The notes beneath the pieces were generated by a model. The model saw nothing but the letters and a program-made list of their open reading frames with translations. It was not told where the DNA came from and did no database searches. From Frateuria soli (GTDB lineage Bacteria > Pseudomonadota > Gammaproteobacteria > Xanthomonadales > Rhodanobacteraceae), in assembly GCF_021117385.1 (NCBI RefSeq), contig NZ_CP088252.1, positions 372,001 to 436,000 on the forward strand: DNA of 64,000 nucleotides, in the 5' to 3' direction. A program made the translations under genes and the position numbers. Positions 49,699-56,721 of this stretch are shown piece after piece; the stretch's first letter is position 1, and every line of letters begins with the position of its first letter.

Positions 49699-49713
49699 AT
49701 AGGGCATGCCTAT
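49699..49713. promoter_or_regulatory. OxyR operator motif before oxyR
   Basis: ATAG (49699-49702), seven bases, CTAT (49710-49713): the exact ATAG-N7-CTAT half of the known OxyR site, ATAG-N7-CTAT-N7-ATAG-N7-CTAT. The second half toward the M1 gene is weak. Autoregulation is the likely role. Confidence 0.6.
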
Positions 49714-49936
49714 GATTGTGGTGCTGGCGATCGATAGGGGCAATGGCGGCCACCATCGGCGACGGAATTCTTTTTCCTGGAGCGGGGGCCCTTGCGCCAA
49801 GCCGACCCTCGCTTGCGGAGGGAGCCGCCGCCCGTTGCGGGCTTCACGCCGCCGCGGCCATGCCTTTTGGCACTGTGTCACAAGTCATGCCCGGCCTAGC
49901 TTCGGGTGTTGCCTTCACTGTTCCCGGGGAAAACAC

Positions 49937-52618
49937 ATGCGTCGACTCGTCAAACCGCTCGTGCTCACCGCGCTGGCCGCCTGTTGCGGCGCCGCCTTCG
50001 CCGCCACCACCGACCAGGTGCCGCACGGCAAGCTGCCGCGCTGGGCGGTGCCACAGTCCTATGCGCTGTCCTTCAAGGTGGATCCGGCGCAGCAGGATTT
50101 CTCCGGCACCACGCGCATCAGGGTCGACCTGAAGCAGGCGTCCGACCACATCTGGCTGCACGGCCACGACCTGAAGGTCTCGAAGGTCAGCGTGACCGAC
50201 GCCTCCGGCAAGACCCATGCGGCCAAGTACGTCGAGGCCGCGCCGAAGGAAGGCGTGGTGCGCGTCGACTTCGCCGACACGCTCAAGCCGCAGGAACTGA
50301 CCCTCGCCTTCGACTACACCGCGCCGCTCAACATGCAGCTGCAGGGCCTGTACAAAGTCAGCCACGAGGGTGTGCCGTACGCGATGACGCAGATGGAGCC
50401 GATCAGCGCGCGCTACGCCTTCCCCGGCTTCGACGAGCCCGATTTCAAGACGCCATTCGACATCAGCCTGACCATCCCCGAGGACGAGAAGGCGGTGGCC
50501 AACACCAAGCAGGTCAAGGAAGCGGCCGCCGGTGACGGCTGGAAGACGCTGACCTTCTCCACCACCAAGCCGCTGCCCACCTATCTGGTCGCCTTCGCCG
50601 TCGGCCCCTGGGACATCGTCGCCGGCCCGGACATCTCGCCGGACGCCTACCGCGCCACGCCGCTGCAGCTGCGCGGCATCGCCGCCAAGGGCGAGGGCCA
50701 CCGCATGCAGCACGTGCTGTCGGAGACGCCGAGCATCATCCACACGCTGGAGGACTACTACGCCTTCGGCTATCCGTGGGACAAGCTCGACCTGCTCGCC
50801 GCGCCGGACTTCTCCGCCGGCGCGATGGAGAACGCCGGCCTGGTGACCTTCCGCGACTGGCTGCTGCTGCTCGACCCGGATTCGCCGGCGCAGTACGTGC
50901 GCGGCTCGTTCAACGTCAACGCGCACGAACTGGCCCACCAGTGGACCGGCGACACCGTCACCACCGCCTGGTGGAACGACATCTGGCTCAACGAGGCCTT
51001 CGCCACCTGGATGCAGCAGAAGGTGACGATGAAGGTGCACCCGGAATACCGTGCGGACCTCGACCGCGTCCGCGGTGCGCAGTACGCCATGGACAACGAC
51101 GCCCTGGTCACCGCGCGCAAGATCCGCCAGCCGATCACCGGCAACGGCGACATCGAGACCGCGTTCGATTCGATCACCTACCAGAAGGGCGCCAGCGTGC
51201 TCGGCATGTTCGAGGGCTACGTCGGCGAGAAGACCTTCCAGCAGGGCATGCGCCAGTACATCCAGGACCACAAGTTCTCCACCGCCACCGCGGACGACCT
51301 GGTCGACTCGATCGCCAAGGCGGCCGACAAGGGCGAGGACTTCAAGCAGGCCTTCAAGAGCTTCCTCAACCAGCCCGGCGTGCCCTACGTGCAGACCCAG
51401 CTGGCGCAGAAGGACGGCCAGACCGTGCTCAAGCTCAGCCAGAGCCGCTACCTGCCGGTCGGCAGCAAGGGCGACGCGAAGCACGTGTGGGGCGTGCCGG
51501 TGTGCGTGCGCTATGGCACCGCCGACGGCAGCAAGGTCAACTGCGAGCTGCTGGAGAAGGCCACCGGCACGATCGCGCTGCCGGGCGCCAGCGCCAACAC
51601 ATGGGTGATGCCCAACGCCAACGCCAGCGGCTACTACCGCTTCGGCATGGACAAGGGCGACCTGGCCCGCCTGGGCGACCGGATCAGCCACCTCACCGAC
51701 GCCGAGCAGCTGGCCTATGCCGACGCCGCCGACGCCAGCTTCCACCACGGCGACATCGACGCGGGCGACCTGCTGGCGGCGCTGAAGCCGTTGACCGCCT
51801 CGCGCGTGCGCGCGGTGGCCACCGCGCCGATCGCCAGCTTCGAGTGGATCGACCGCTACCTGGCTGCGACCGATGCGCAGCGCAACGCGCTCGATGCCTG
51901 GGCGCGGACCGCCTACCTGCCGCGCATGGAGCTGCTGGGCTACCACCGCAAGCCCGGCGAGCCGGATGACGATTCGCTGTTGCGCAGCACGCTGGCCGGC
52001 TTCCTGGCGCTGGACGTGAAGTTGCCGCAGGTGCGCGCGGAACTGCTCAAGCAGGGTGAGGCCGCGCTCCAGCGCAAGGCCGATGGCCACCTCAACCTCG
52101 ATGCGGCCGATCCGGACCTGCTCGACACCGCGCTGGCGGTGGCGGTGCAGGAGCACGGCAAGAGCGCGGTCGATGCGCTGATCGCCGAGCTGCCCAAGAC
52201 CTCCGACCCCGCCCAGCGCAATGCCATGCTGGCCGGCCTGAGCGCGGTCGAGGATCCGGCACTGGCCGAGCGGGTGCGCAACTTCGCGCTGGACAAGCAG
52301 GTCAAGGTCGGCGAGATGGCCGCCCTGCTGCGTGGCGGCCGCGAGACCCGCGCCGGGCGCGATGCGATGTGGAAGTGGGCGGTCGCCCATTACGACCGCA
52401 TCGTCGAGCGCACTGGCAGCTTCGCCGGCGGTCGCCTGCCCGGCCTGATGGGCGGTGGCGGTTGCTCGCAGGAGGAAGCCGACCGCCTGCAGGCGTTCTT
52501 CAAGACCCGCGCCAAGGACGTCACCGGCGCCGAACGTGGCCTGGCGCAGACCACCGAGAACACCCTGCTGTGTGCCGCGCTGAAGGCCAAGCAGGATCCG
52601 CAGGCGATCATGCACTGA
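49937..52618 (+). CDS. M1 family aminopeptidase, exported
   Basis: Zinc aminopeptidase of the ERAP/ApN type. ATG 49937 opens a signal peptide (about 1-22, LVLTALAACCGAAFA); the 893 residues are normal for the family. Seen: QMEPISARYAFPGFDEPDFK, substrate motif GAMENAG (about 296), zinc motif HELAHQW (about 330) and the third ligand in WLNEAFATW (about 352). A C-terminal ERAP1-like helical domain ends with CSQEEADRLQAFF. It ends in a GNRA-loop terminator. Confidence 0.93.
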   Translation: MRRLVKPLVLTALAACCGAAFAATTDQVPHGKLPRWAVPQSYALSFKVDPAQQDFSGTTRIRVDLKQASDHIWLHGHDLKVSKVSVTDASGKTHAAKYVEAAPKEGVVRVDFADTLKPQELTLAFDYTAPLNMQLQGLYKVSHEGVPYAMTQMEPISARYAFPGFDEPDFKTPFDISLTIPEDEKAVANTKQVKEAAAGDGWKTLTFSTTKPLPTYLVAFAVGPWDIVAGPDISPDAYRATPLQLRGIAAKGEGHRMQHVLSETPSIIHTLEDYYAFGYPWDKLDLLAAPDFSAGAMENAGLVTFRDWLLLLDPDSPAQYVRGSFNVNAHELAHQWTGDTVTTAWWNDIWLNEAFATWMQQKVTMKVHPEYRADLDRVRGAQYAMDNDALVTARKIRQPITGNGDIETAFDSITYQKGASVLGMFEGYVGEKTFQQGMRQYIQDHKFSTATADDLVDSIAKAADKGEDFKQAFKSFLNQPGVPYVQTQLAQKDGQTVLKLSQSRYLPVGSKGDAKHVWGVPVCVRYGTADGSKVNCELLEKATGTIALPGASANTWVMPNANASGYYRFGMDKGDLARLGDRISHLTDAEQLAYADAADASFHHGDIDAGDLLAALKPLTASRVRAVATAPIASFEWIDRYLAATDAQRNALDAWARTAYLPRMELLGYHRKPGEPDDDSLLRSTLAGFLALDVKLPQVRAELLKQGEAALQRKADGHLNLDAADPDLLDTALAVAVQEHGKSAVDALIAELPKTSDPAQRNAMLAGLSAVEDPALAERVRNFALDKQVKVGEMAALLRGGRETRAGRDAMWKWAVAHYDRIVERTGSFAGGRLPGLMGGGGCSQEEADRLQAFFKTRAKDVTGAERGLAQTTENTLLCAALKAKQDPQAIMH

Positions 52619-52644: not shown

Positions 52645-52676
52645 ACGCCGGGCGGAAACGCCCGGCGTCCTGCTTT
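52645..52676 (+). terminator. rho-independent terminator of the M1 gene
   Basis: ACGCCGGGCG / CGCCCGGCGT, a 10-bp perfect stem with a GAAA tetraloop, then CCTGCTTTAT. It lies 26 bp after the stop. Confidence 0.75.
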
Positions 52677-52770: not shown

Positions 52771-55700
52771 ATGCGTGCTCGATCAGGATGGCTGTTGCTC
52801 ATGGGCCTGCTGCTGGCCGCGCCGGCGATCGCGCAGCAGGTGCCGCCGCCGTTGCGCGACTGGCAGGACTGGGTGCTGCACGAGGAGGCGGCGCATGCCT
52901 GCCCGCGGCTGGCACACGCGCCCGGCCAGGGCGAGGCGTGGCAGTGCGCCTGGCCCGGCCGGCTGGCGCTGTCGACCGATGCCGGGGGCGGGCAGTTCAC
53001 CCTGGACGCCCACGCCGACGCCCCTGCGTGGATCGCGCTGCCGGGCGGTGTGCGCCACTGGCCGGAACAGGTCCGGCTGGACGGCCAACCGGCCGTGGTG
53101 CTGGAGCGCGACGGCCAGCCGGTGGTGCGCGTTTCGCCCGGCGACCATCGCGTGCAAGGCCGGTTGCCCTGGTCGGCACGCCCGGCACGGCTGCACGTGC
53201 CCGGGGCGATCGCCCTGGTCGAACTCACCGTCGACGGCAAGCCGGTCGCACGGCTGCAGCGCGATGGCGACGAACTGGCCCTGGGCGAGGCGGCCGCTGC
53301 CCGGCGCGTGGCCGATGCGCTGTCGCTGCGCGTCGACCGCCGCCTGGCCGACGGCCTGCCGGCGACCCTGGAAACCCGCTTGCGTTTCGATGTCACCGGC
53401 AGCCCCCGTGAGCTTTTGCTCGGGCCGGCGTTGCCGAACGGCTTCGTCGCCACCGCGCTGGACGGGGGGCTGCCCGTGCGCATGGAAAGCGACGGCCGCC
53501 TGCGCGTGCAGCTTAAGCCCGGCCGCTGGACGGTCACCCTCGATGCCCGCGCCAGCGCGCCGCTCGCGCGCATCGCGGCGACCCTGCCGCCGCCACCCTG
53601 GCCGCGACAGGAGATCTGGAGCTACGCCGACCACCCCGACCTGCGCGGCAGCCACGCCGAAGGCCAGGCCACCGACGCGGCGCAGGCTGGCGTGCCGGAG
53701 GACTGGCGCGAGCTGCCCGCCTTCGTGATGGACGCCGATGCCACGCTCACCGTGCAGCCGGGTGAGCGCGGGGCGGGACGGCACGATCGCCTGCGCCTGT
53801 CGCGCCGCCTGTGGCTGGACTTCGACGGCCGCGGCCTGGCGGTGGACGACCGCCTGCAGGGCGAACTGCACCGCCAGCGGCTGGAAGTCGACGCGCCGTG
53901 GCAGCTGCAGCGCGCCGAACAGGACGGCGAGCCGCTGCTGATCAGTCGCGCCGGGGATGGACGCAGCGGGGTGGAGGTGCGCAGCGATCGACTCGATCTC
54001 GGCGCCGGGCTGCGCGTGCCCGCCAGCGGCGCGCTGCCGGTGACCGGCTGGAGCGCGCCGCTCGAACGCATCGACGCCACGCTCCAGCTGCCGCCGGGCT
54101 ATCGCCTGCTCGGTGCGCCCGGTGCGGACAACTCGCCCGATTCGTGGGTGGCCGGGTGGAGCCTGCTGGACGTGTTCGGCGTGGCGCTGATCGCCCTGCT
54201 GGCCGGCCGCCTGCTGGGCTGGCCATGGGCGCTGCTGCTCGCGCTGGCGCTGCTGTTGCGCGCGCTGCCGGAGGGTCGTCTGCAGCGCGCCGTGAACGTC
54301 GCCGCCCTGGCCTCGTCCGTGCTCGCGGTGCTGTGGACGCTGCCCTTCGTGGCCACCCAGCTGCAATACGCACTGCATCCGCAGCTCGAGCCGCAGACCC
54401 GGCACATCAGCCTGGAGACCGCCATGCTCGACCAGAGCTACAACGTTCCGCCAGCCGGACCTGCAGCTCCCGCCGCGGCCGAGCGACGGGCGTCAGCGCC
54501 TGACCGGGCGCTTGCCGGCGTGTCGGTGGGCGCCACGAAGCGATCCGCGACGCAGCTGCCCGTGGACGCCCGCAGCCTGGTCCAGGCGGGCCCGGGCACG
54601 CCGACCTGGCGCCTCGGCAGCAATTACCGCCTGGGCTGGTCCGGGCCGGTCACGCCCCGGCAGACCGTACGCCTGGTGATCGCCCCGGCGTGGCTGGTGA
54701 GCCTGTTGCGCGTACTGATGGTGGTGCTGCTGGCCGCGTTGCTCGCACGCGTGCTTCCCTCGCTGCTGGCACCCTGGCGCGGGCGCGGGCGCTGGCAAGG
54801 CAGGCGGGATGCGGCTTCGGCGGCGTTGCTGGCGCTGGCATTGCTGCCCTGGCACGCCCATGCGCAGGCGCTGCCGAGTCAGCCGCTGCTCGACCAGTTG
54901 CGCCAGCGCCTGGTCGAGGCGCCCGCCTGCGCGCCCGCCTGCGCGAACCTGCCGCAGGCGCGAGCGGTACCGGCCGGCGATGCGCTCGACCTCACCCTGC
55001 AGGCGCACGCCGGCGCCACGGTCGCGCTGCCCCTGCCGGCCACCACGCTGCCGCTGGTCACGGCGACGGTCGATGGGCGGCCGGCGGTGCTGGCGCGACG
55101 CGATGGCGATCTGCTCTGGCTGCGGCTCGAACCGGGCGTCCATGAGGTGGCGCTGCGTTACCGGCTCGACGGCATCGACAGCGCACGCCTGCGGTTTGCC
55201 CTGGCGCCACAGCGCGTCGTGGTGCAAACGGACGGCTGGACGGCCGACGGGCTGGACGCCGACCGCCTGCTCGGCGACAGCCTGGCCTTCGACCGCCAGC
55301 GGGTCGTCGCGGGCGGCGAGGCCAGTACGCCCGGGCAGGACCTCCCGCCCTATGTGCGCCTTACCCGCCGGCTTGTGCTGGGCAGCGAATGGACGGTGCA
55401 CAACGAGGTCGAGCGCATCGCGCCGCAGGCTGGCGGCTTCAGTGTCGCGCTGCCGCTGTTGCCCGGCGAACACCCGCTGGGCGCGGATGCGCCGGTGAGC
55501 GACGGGCGCATCCAGCTCGCCTTCAACGCCGGCACCGACAGCGTCGGGTGGACCAGCCGCCTGGACCGGATGGCCCGATTGCAACTGGTTGCGCCCGCGC
55601 TGGCCGAGCGCGCCGAAGTGTGGGAGATCGATGCCGCGCCGATGTGGCACGTGGAGGCCAGCGGCGTGCCGGCCAGTGACGGTGACGTGCTGCGCTTCCA

Positions 55701-56721
55701 GCCGTTGCCGGGCGAGCGGCTCACGCTGGCGCTCAGCCAGCCGGTCGCCGTCGCGGGCGGCACCCTGGCGTTCGACCAGGTGCAGTCCCGCAGCACCGTT
55801 GGCGAGCGCGCCACCGAAACCGTCCTGCAACTGCAGGCGCGCAGCACCCGTGGTGGCGAGCACGCGCTGGGCCTGCCGGCCGAGGCCGAGCTGTTGCAGG
55901 CCAGCCGCGACGGCGAGCGCCTGCCGCTGGCCGTGCGCAACGGCACGCTGTCACTGCCCCTGCTGCCGGGCACGCACCGCTACGAGTTGCGCCTGCGCGG
56001 GCCCGGTGGCGCGGCTGCGCGCATCCGCTCGCCGGCCGTCGCCCTGCACGCGCCGGCGGCCAATCTCGATACGTTCCTGCACCTGCCGCGTGACCGCTGG
56101 GTGCTGTGGACCTGGGGCGAGGGCGCCGGTCCCGCCGTGCTGTACTGGGCGCAGCTGGTCGTGCTGCTGGCCGCGGCCTGGCTGCTCTCGCGTTACGCGC
56201 CCACGCCGCTGCGCTTCCGCCACTGGCTGCTGCTGGGCCTGGGCTTTTCCGCCTTCGCCTGGAGCGCATATGCCGTGGTGGTGGTCTGGCTGATCCTGCT
56301 CGGCCTGCGGGCGCGGGTCGAGGTCGGCACGTGGCGCGCCGGGTTGTTCGACCTGATGCAGGTGGGGCTGGCGCTGCTCACGGCGATCGCGCTCGGCGTG
56401 CTGGTGGCCGCGGTGCCGGGCGGCCTGCTGGGGCAGCCGGACATGCACGTCGCCGGCATGGGTTCCAGCGCGCTGCAACTGCACTGGTTCGCCGACCGTA
56501 GTGCCGGCGTGCTGCCGCAGGCGGGCGTGTTCAGCCTGCCGTTGTGGACCTACAAGCTGGCCATGCTGGCCTGGGCGCTGTGGCTGGCCAACGCGTTGAT
56601 CGGCTGGCTGCGCTGGGGTTTCGAGGCCTGGTCGCAGGGTGGCTACTGGCGCCGCGACAAGCCGCGGCCGGCTGCGCCGCCGCAACTGCCCACCGCCGCC
56701 GAGGTGCCACCCGATGCCTGA
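52771..56721 (+). CDS. large internally duplicated envelope protein, unknown function
   Basis: I do not recognise a named family. The 1316 residues show a signal peptide (about 1-22), a beta-rich periplasmic region (about 30-455), a membrane cluster (about 465-530) and a linker. A membrane segment follows (about 635-665), then an internal signal-peptide-like stretch (about 681-700, [15 protein letters not shown]) and a second beta-rich region (about 705-1090). Several more helices lie near the C terminus. [16 protein letters not shown] (about 100-115) resembles [16 protein letters not shown] (about 764-779), and both halves start with a short helical cysteine-containing motif. The stop overlaps prmC by 8 bp. 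Confidence 0.8.

Follow-up and report, generated by a model that had tools for sequence, protein, structure and literature searches.

The open reading frame at positions 52771-56721 (forward strand) of the window, the 64,000-nucleotide stretch of the Frateuria soli genome analysed here, encodes a 1316-residue envelope protein composed of two homologous halves that originated by tandem duplication. Full-length relatives match the whole reading frame. The second half is preceded by an internal segment that resembles a signal peptide and is conserved across the family, and in one distant relative the halves are encoded by two separate genes. It appears reasonably likely that the protein is a precursor from which signal peptidase I would release two inner-membrane subunits that stay paired and whose periplasmic part would have a non-catalytic role in binding or as a scaffold. 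An architecture, a fold and a maturation hypothesis would thereby be available for a large, conserved and unnamed envelope protein that occurs in many Gammaproteobacteria and in related lineages.

Homology of the two halves and their domain organisation

The alignment comprised 113 rows, the window protein and 112 relatives (26-86% identity), which were retained from 131 open reading frames by a full-length criterion. As several rows represented the same species twice, counts were taken on a non-redundant set of 84 rows of less than 80% identity, with rows containing unknown residues removed. The earlier note had described two similar halves and suggested the tandem duplication of an exported membrane protein, and both proposals are upheld by self-alignment, the duplication also by the lack of a curated family over the whole length and by the stand-alone halves described below. 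As single sequences, the halves matched by BLASTP with an E-value of 4e-4 (36% identity over 102 residues), and their Smith-Waterman score of 136 was reached in none of 300 shuffles (57.6 +/- 9.8). Comparison of the half profiles (84 rows each) by hhalign gave a probability of 99.1, an E-value of 2e-18 and a score of 161 over 490 columns, nearly end to end. Reversal of the C half lowered the score to 25.2 (E 0.07), the N half against its own reverse scored 36.1 (E 0.004) and five column shuffles scored 17-21, all seven of these controls having E-values of 0.004 or worse. The signal is due to the periplasmic beta region, which on its own gave an E-value of 5e-17 over 376 columns (reversed control, 0.23).

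Structures were predicted with AlphaFold2 separately for each half on 83 rows, with mean pLDDT values of 84.1 (N half) and 88.7 (C half) and pTM values of 0.60 and 0.59, so that the domains are predicted with confidence and their arrangement with less. The elements follow the same order in both models: three beta domains precede a transmembrane (TM) bundle, after which come a beta hairpin and the last TM helix. All features are on the forward strand. The N half opens with a putative signal peptide read from the sequence as a hydrophobic segment (residues 1-21, ending AIA before Gln; 52771-52833), followed by a helix with Cys44 and Cys59 (52834-52947) and by the modelled beta domains A (residues 60-176; 52948-53298), B (177-332; 53299-53766) and C (333-455; 53767-54135). 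Then come the first membrane cluster, placed by model, alignment and hydropathy (456-540, three model helices; 54136-54390), a Pro/Ala-rich, fast-evolving linker (541-604, with pLDDT below 50 at 567-595; 54391-54582), the hairpin that completes domain C in the model (613-639; 54607-54687) and the last TM helix (640-670; 54688-54780). Past the junction, the predicted mature start of the C half carries Cys720 and Cys724 (54865-54942) and leads into beta domains A' (725-857; 54943-55341) and B' (858-992; 55342-55746), each placed by model and profile match, and C' (993-1118; 55747-56124). The second membrane cluster (1119-1220; 56125-56430), the hairpin completing C' (1236-1257; 56476-56541) and the last TM helix (1258-1288; 56542-56634) were located from the model.

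The beta domains of the two halves find their best matches in order, A with A' (E 1e-14), B with B' (1e-7) and C with C' (4e-4), and A' also resembles C' (2e-7), all values being without a reversed control; the likeness of A' to C' suggests that the beta domains themselves probably arose by repeated duplication. The DGxPAV...RDG repeat, which had been assigned earlier to a beta-rich region of both halves, is found as a VDGxPAV...RDG motif in domain A of each. Two other elements ascribed to both halves were retained in part. The Cys-bearing helices stand, Cys44, Cys59, Cys720 and Cys724 being invariant in 84/84 non-redundant rows, and the membrane clusters have the same layout in the two models, but neither the Cys motif alone (E 0.11) nor the membrane clusters alone (E 0.07 against 0.11 reversed) showed significant likeness in profile comparison.

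In each predicted half model, the third domain and the hairpin beyond the TM bundle form a single fold of the M1_N type, known from the non-catalytic N-terminal domain of M1 aminopeptidases. Structure comparison (VIA) with an M1 peptidase gave Z 14.0 for C' (150 residues, 3.0 A) and Z 11.7 for C (143 residues, 3.2 A). A profile of 30 M1_N domains matched C' with an E-value of 4e-6 (reversed control, 0.05), while the other five beta domains gave no clear match to it. On these models the third beta domain of each half can be assigned to the M1_N fold with high confidence. The number of TM helices per half is uncertain, as models and hydropathy disagree: three helices precede the hairpin in the N-half model and four, one of them of 12 residues, in the C-half model, whereas a crude count of hydropathy peaks gave four in the first cluster in 76/113 rows and three in 37/113 (including the window protein), and three in the second cluster in 96/113 rows, four in 16 and five in one.

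The internal signal-like segment and the separated halves

The internal segment ending AHAQ, which had been likened to a signal peptide, lies with this motif at residues 696-699 and recurs family-wide with a signal peptidase I-like site. At the junction, the last TM helix of the first half is followed first by a positive loop and then by a hydrophobic stretch with an Ala-x-Ala site after it (loop and segment, residues 671-698, ending AHA before Gln; 54781-54864). Ala occupies position -1 in 73/84 non-redundant rows and Gln, Glu or Asp position +1 in 68/84, position -2 varies, and Pro is present at the column of residue 693 in 65/84; in the window protein this is position -6, and in gapped rows it falls closer to the site. 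A small-x-small pattern is in register in 72/84 rows and, as judged by eye, the other 12 have small-x-Ala at least one residue out of register. The loop ahead of the site is net positive in 82/84. As a strict scan for small-x-small behind a hydrophobic stretch fires at the internal site in 101/113 rows and at the last TM helix in 98/113, such a scan is not discriminating, and the case rests on the column pattern and on the split gene of genome G091. Judged from the sequences, the family carries a putative internal export signal with a conserved signal peptidase I-type site.

Stand-alone halves were found in G091. Its N half is a complete gene of 713 residues that stops just after the last TM helix. 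Its C half, a complete gene of 685 residues, is carried by a different contig and has a signal peptide of its own as well as a GGAG ribosome site, and each of the two genes lies mid-contig (L145:2853-4910 and L146:2443-4584). The best matches of both halves (14 listed for each) are proteins of the same family, most of them fused, which suggests that the split is probably a secondary event. It constitutes the strongest evidence for the internal export signal. Among the copies opened, fission at the junction was observed in G091 only, and other apparent splits were set aside: a run of N breaks L081; in G744 an IS630-like transposase gene (L179:4256-5287) separates the ectodomain from the first TM cluster; G290 and G087 have frameshifts within the C half; contig ends truncate G506, G245, G738, G743, G237, G569 and G732; and G169, placed at base 45 of its contig, looks similarly cut. 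The internal segment very probably acts as an export signal, and it is likely, with somewhat less assurance, that it is also cut.

The main rival to cleavage is that the internal segment serves as an uncleaved signal-anchor TM helix in a single chain of about 1300 residues with two Ost1-like lobes. Nearly all complete copies are indeed one continuous reading frame, and the segment is TM-like in length, its median uncharged length of 21 giving no separation from TM segments (medians 13-31). Against an anchor of this kind speak the Pro before the site, the small residue at -3, Ala at -1 and Gln, Glu or Asp at +1 around a variable -2, as well as the G091 counterpart being an N-terminal signal peptide, and we regard an uncleaved chain as possible and rather unlikely.

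With cleavage as the preferred reading, an old tandem duplication would have given rise to a precursor of two homologous inner-membrane subunits. The plan of each would comprise a signal peptide, a Cys-pair helix, three periplasmic beta domains, the third with the M1_N fold, and a last TM helix, with three or four TM helices set into the third beta domain ahead of its last hairpin. The loop past the last TM helix of the first half is probably cytoplasmic, since it is positively charged; if the first half does end in the cytoplasm, the second would need a second export signal, which the internal segment may supply. Signal peptidase I would probably cut after Ala698 and the halves would probably remain paired. 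On the outer face of the inner membrane, the large ectodomain may bind other molecules or serve as a scaffold without being catalytic, a role that is put forward tentatively. To our knowledge, few bacterial precursors are cut at an internal signal peptide to give two membrane subunits. FbcH of Bradyrhizobium, a cytochrome b/c1 precursor, is cut in this manner and likewise has one gene, an internal export signal and two membrane subunits, whereas its subunits are unrelated cytochromes and those of the present family are homologous, with a cut that is predicted only. If the precursor is cut, its products would be homologous, so that subunit pairing would stem from duplication.

Comparison with Ost1 and with M1 aminopeptidases

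Foldseek matches to the whole half models are led by Ost1/ribophorin I (E 4e-8 to 3e-6 and 6e-7 to 3e-5; probability 1.00), with a GPI transamidase chain (E 2e-4, probability 0.63) and an alginate lyase (0.38) among the lower-probability rows. Superposition over two domains was poor (TM-scores 0.14-0.30, rmsd 13-28 A), indicating that the domain arrangement differs or is poorly predicted. Ost1 is described as having a single TM helix and, on the luminal side, a pair of beta domains that resemble each other (PMC7226087). Each half of the 1316-residue protein may be comparable in its predicted beta domains and in the TM helix past the last of them, but the beta domains of a half number three, a TM bundle lies within the third, the whole is doubled, sequence searches gave no match and no STT3 partner exceeds the cut-off in 61 genomes. 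The Ribophorin_I model (PF04597) matched none of 23 family members at E <= 1, and a search of 36 class genomes gave 0 matches, which carries no weight as no control matched either. A review table gives Ost1 without an archaeal or bacterial counterpart (PMC7226087), and the fold link makes the origin of this subunit an approachable question.

The lead of Ost1/ribophorin I among the whole-half matches could be taken to mean that the protein assists a bacterial protein glycosylation system as an accessory subunit, by analogy with Ost1 in the eukaryotic oligosaccharyltransferase. However, STT3 (PF02516) exceeded its curated cut-off in 0/61 genomes, with weaker matches in G008 and G043, which makes an oligosaccharyltransferase role unlikely; the family is present in 34/61 of the same-sized genome set, and PF04597 was unmatched. 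A search for PglL_A gave no match in any control genome and is given no weight. We consider a glycosylation subunit highly improbable. The M1_N fold of the third domains, and the M1 aminopeptidase gene, which lies upstream in the window and was found in 35/44 loci, could instead point to a degenerate membrane aminopeptidase, an M1 enzyme that has shed its catalytic domain and perhaps descends from the adjoining gene. The N-terminal domain of M1 aminopeptidases and LTA4 hydrolase (PF17900) does have the fold of C and C', but the 1316-residue protein is without the catalytic domain and its TM bundle interrupts the domain before the last hairpin. The PF17900 model matched 0/23 members, there was no Peptidase_M1 match, and HEXXH occurred in 1/113 rows, not that of the window protein, so that neither feature of peptidase family M1 was found. 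Further, tblastn with the window M1 enzyme gave 0 matches in ten loci from other genomes (about 16 kb each, one of the same family). Such an origin is improbable, if less so than the glycosylation role. A broader and speculative reading, somewhat more plausible than these two and still doubtful, regards the family as a bacterial relative of ribophorin I/Ost1. In this view, cutting of the precursor would yield two Ost1-like membrane subunits, which would together provide a platform for binding clients next to the translocon or some other envelope machine, and the Ost1 fold arrangement might have arisen in prokaryotes.

Distribution, locus and sequence evolution

The family was detected in 34/61 close genomes, 38/274 class genomes and 31/398 phylum genomes, each count including the window's own genome; the three sets overlap and each count takes in a few fragments or chance matches. 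Of the 31, three are weak matches or due to chance and some others are fragments, and the 34 include G021, which has a 53-residue remnant only. Relatives in most of the 34 genomes are full-length, of about 1300-1450 residues. Contigs of the close relatives contain 47 loci, of which L082 and L084 are cut at contig ends and L081 is broken by the run of N. There is usually one copy per genome, and no second match to the protein was found elsewhere in the complete 3.49 Mb genome of the window. G746 (L231, L232) has one copy intact and another truncated by a contig end, with short C-terminal fragments beside them, so that the family is not strictly single copy. One relative, from Azoarcus, is plasmid-borne, and G512 has a short remnant with stops only.

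No curated family in Pfam or NCBIfam explained the length of the protein or of the scanned members, and NCBIfam gave only two matches, with E-values of 0.2 or worse. In a scan of 23 members, weak matches in 1-3 members each were rejected for BiPBP_C (13.1 bits against a cut-off of 26.8), SEF14 adhesin, DUF3619 (best E 0.0044), DEC-1_N, PRIMA1 and a WLS-like family; those to CemA in the G091 N half and to DUF4785_3rd were below cut-off. Sequence search of solved structures returned chance matches only (E 0.88 to 5.7), PADLOC gave no match for three proteins, and a literature search of titles and abstract openings found no paper on the family. The profile matches in G457 and G455 seem to be due to chance or to a contig end. 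That in G643 falls in a pepN gene (L142), with an E-value of 1.3e-4 for one genome and about 0.05 over 398; lying in the N-terminal part, it is in line with the M1_N fold and is no evidence on its own.

The gene was reported earlier to follow a secreted aminopeptidase and to overlap prmC, and both positions are confirmed. The upstream neighbour is an M1 aminopeptidase gene (49706-52618), separated by a gap containing a terminator-like hairpin (52645-52668, forward strand; by consensus match only), and the likely ATG of prmC at 56714 lies within an 8-nt overlap with the end of the reading frame (ATGCCTGA). The hairpin and the overlap suggest that the gene is probably transcribed apart from the M1 gene and together with prmC. 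The fold of domains C and C' was also observed to be that of the N-terminal domain family of this aminopeptidase. Among 44 loci, the 47 of the close relatives less three shorter than 9 kb, 36 have prmC close to the gene and 35 have the M1 aminopeptidase there. Beyond this order the context varies among the 123 placed loci (of 126), with what we take to be mpl, a murein recycling ligase gene, upstream in two genomes (L098 and L104, the same as L186 and L185), presumably a coiled-coil gene in family f43 and an assumed HAD-like gene in another group. As the context is not common to the lineages, gene neighbourhood was dropped as a clue to function.

Purifying selection is evident from whole-gene dN/dS values of 0.19-0.25 in six pairs, and of 0.21-0.25 against three near relatives, with 0.49-0.90 in the linker for six pairs. 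Inside the gene, five DNA repeat families with two copies each (32-44 nt) and a single inverted pair were taken as chance. The window copy is without 22 residues of the first membrane cluster, having 21 residues where the other 112 rows have 42-44; the corresponding in-frame loss of 66 bp, at 54220-54250 of the window, is absent from those 112 rows and is consistent with a slip between GCxCTGCTG-like repeats.
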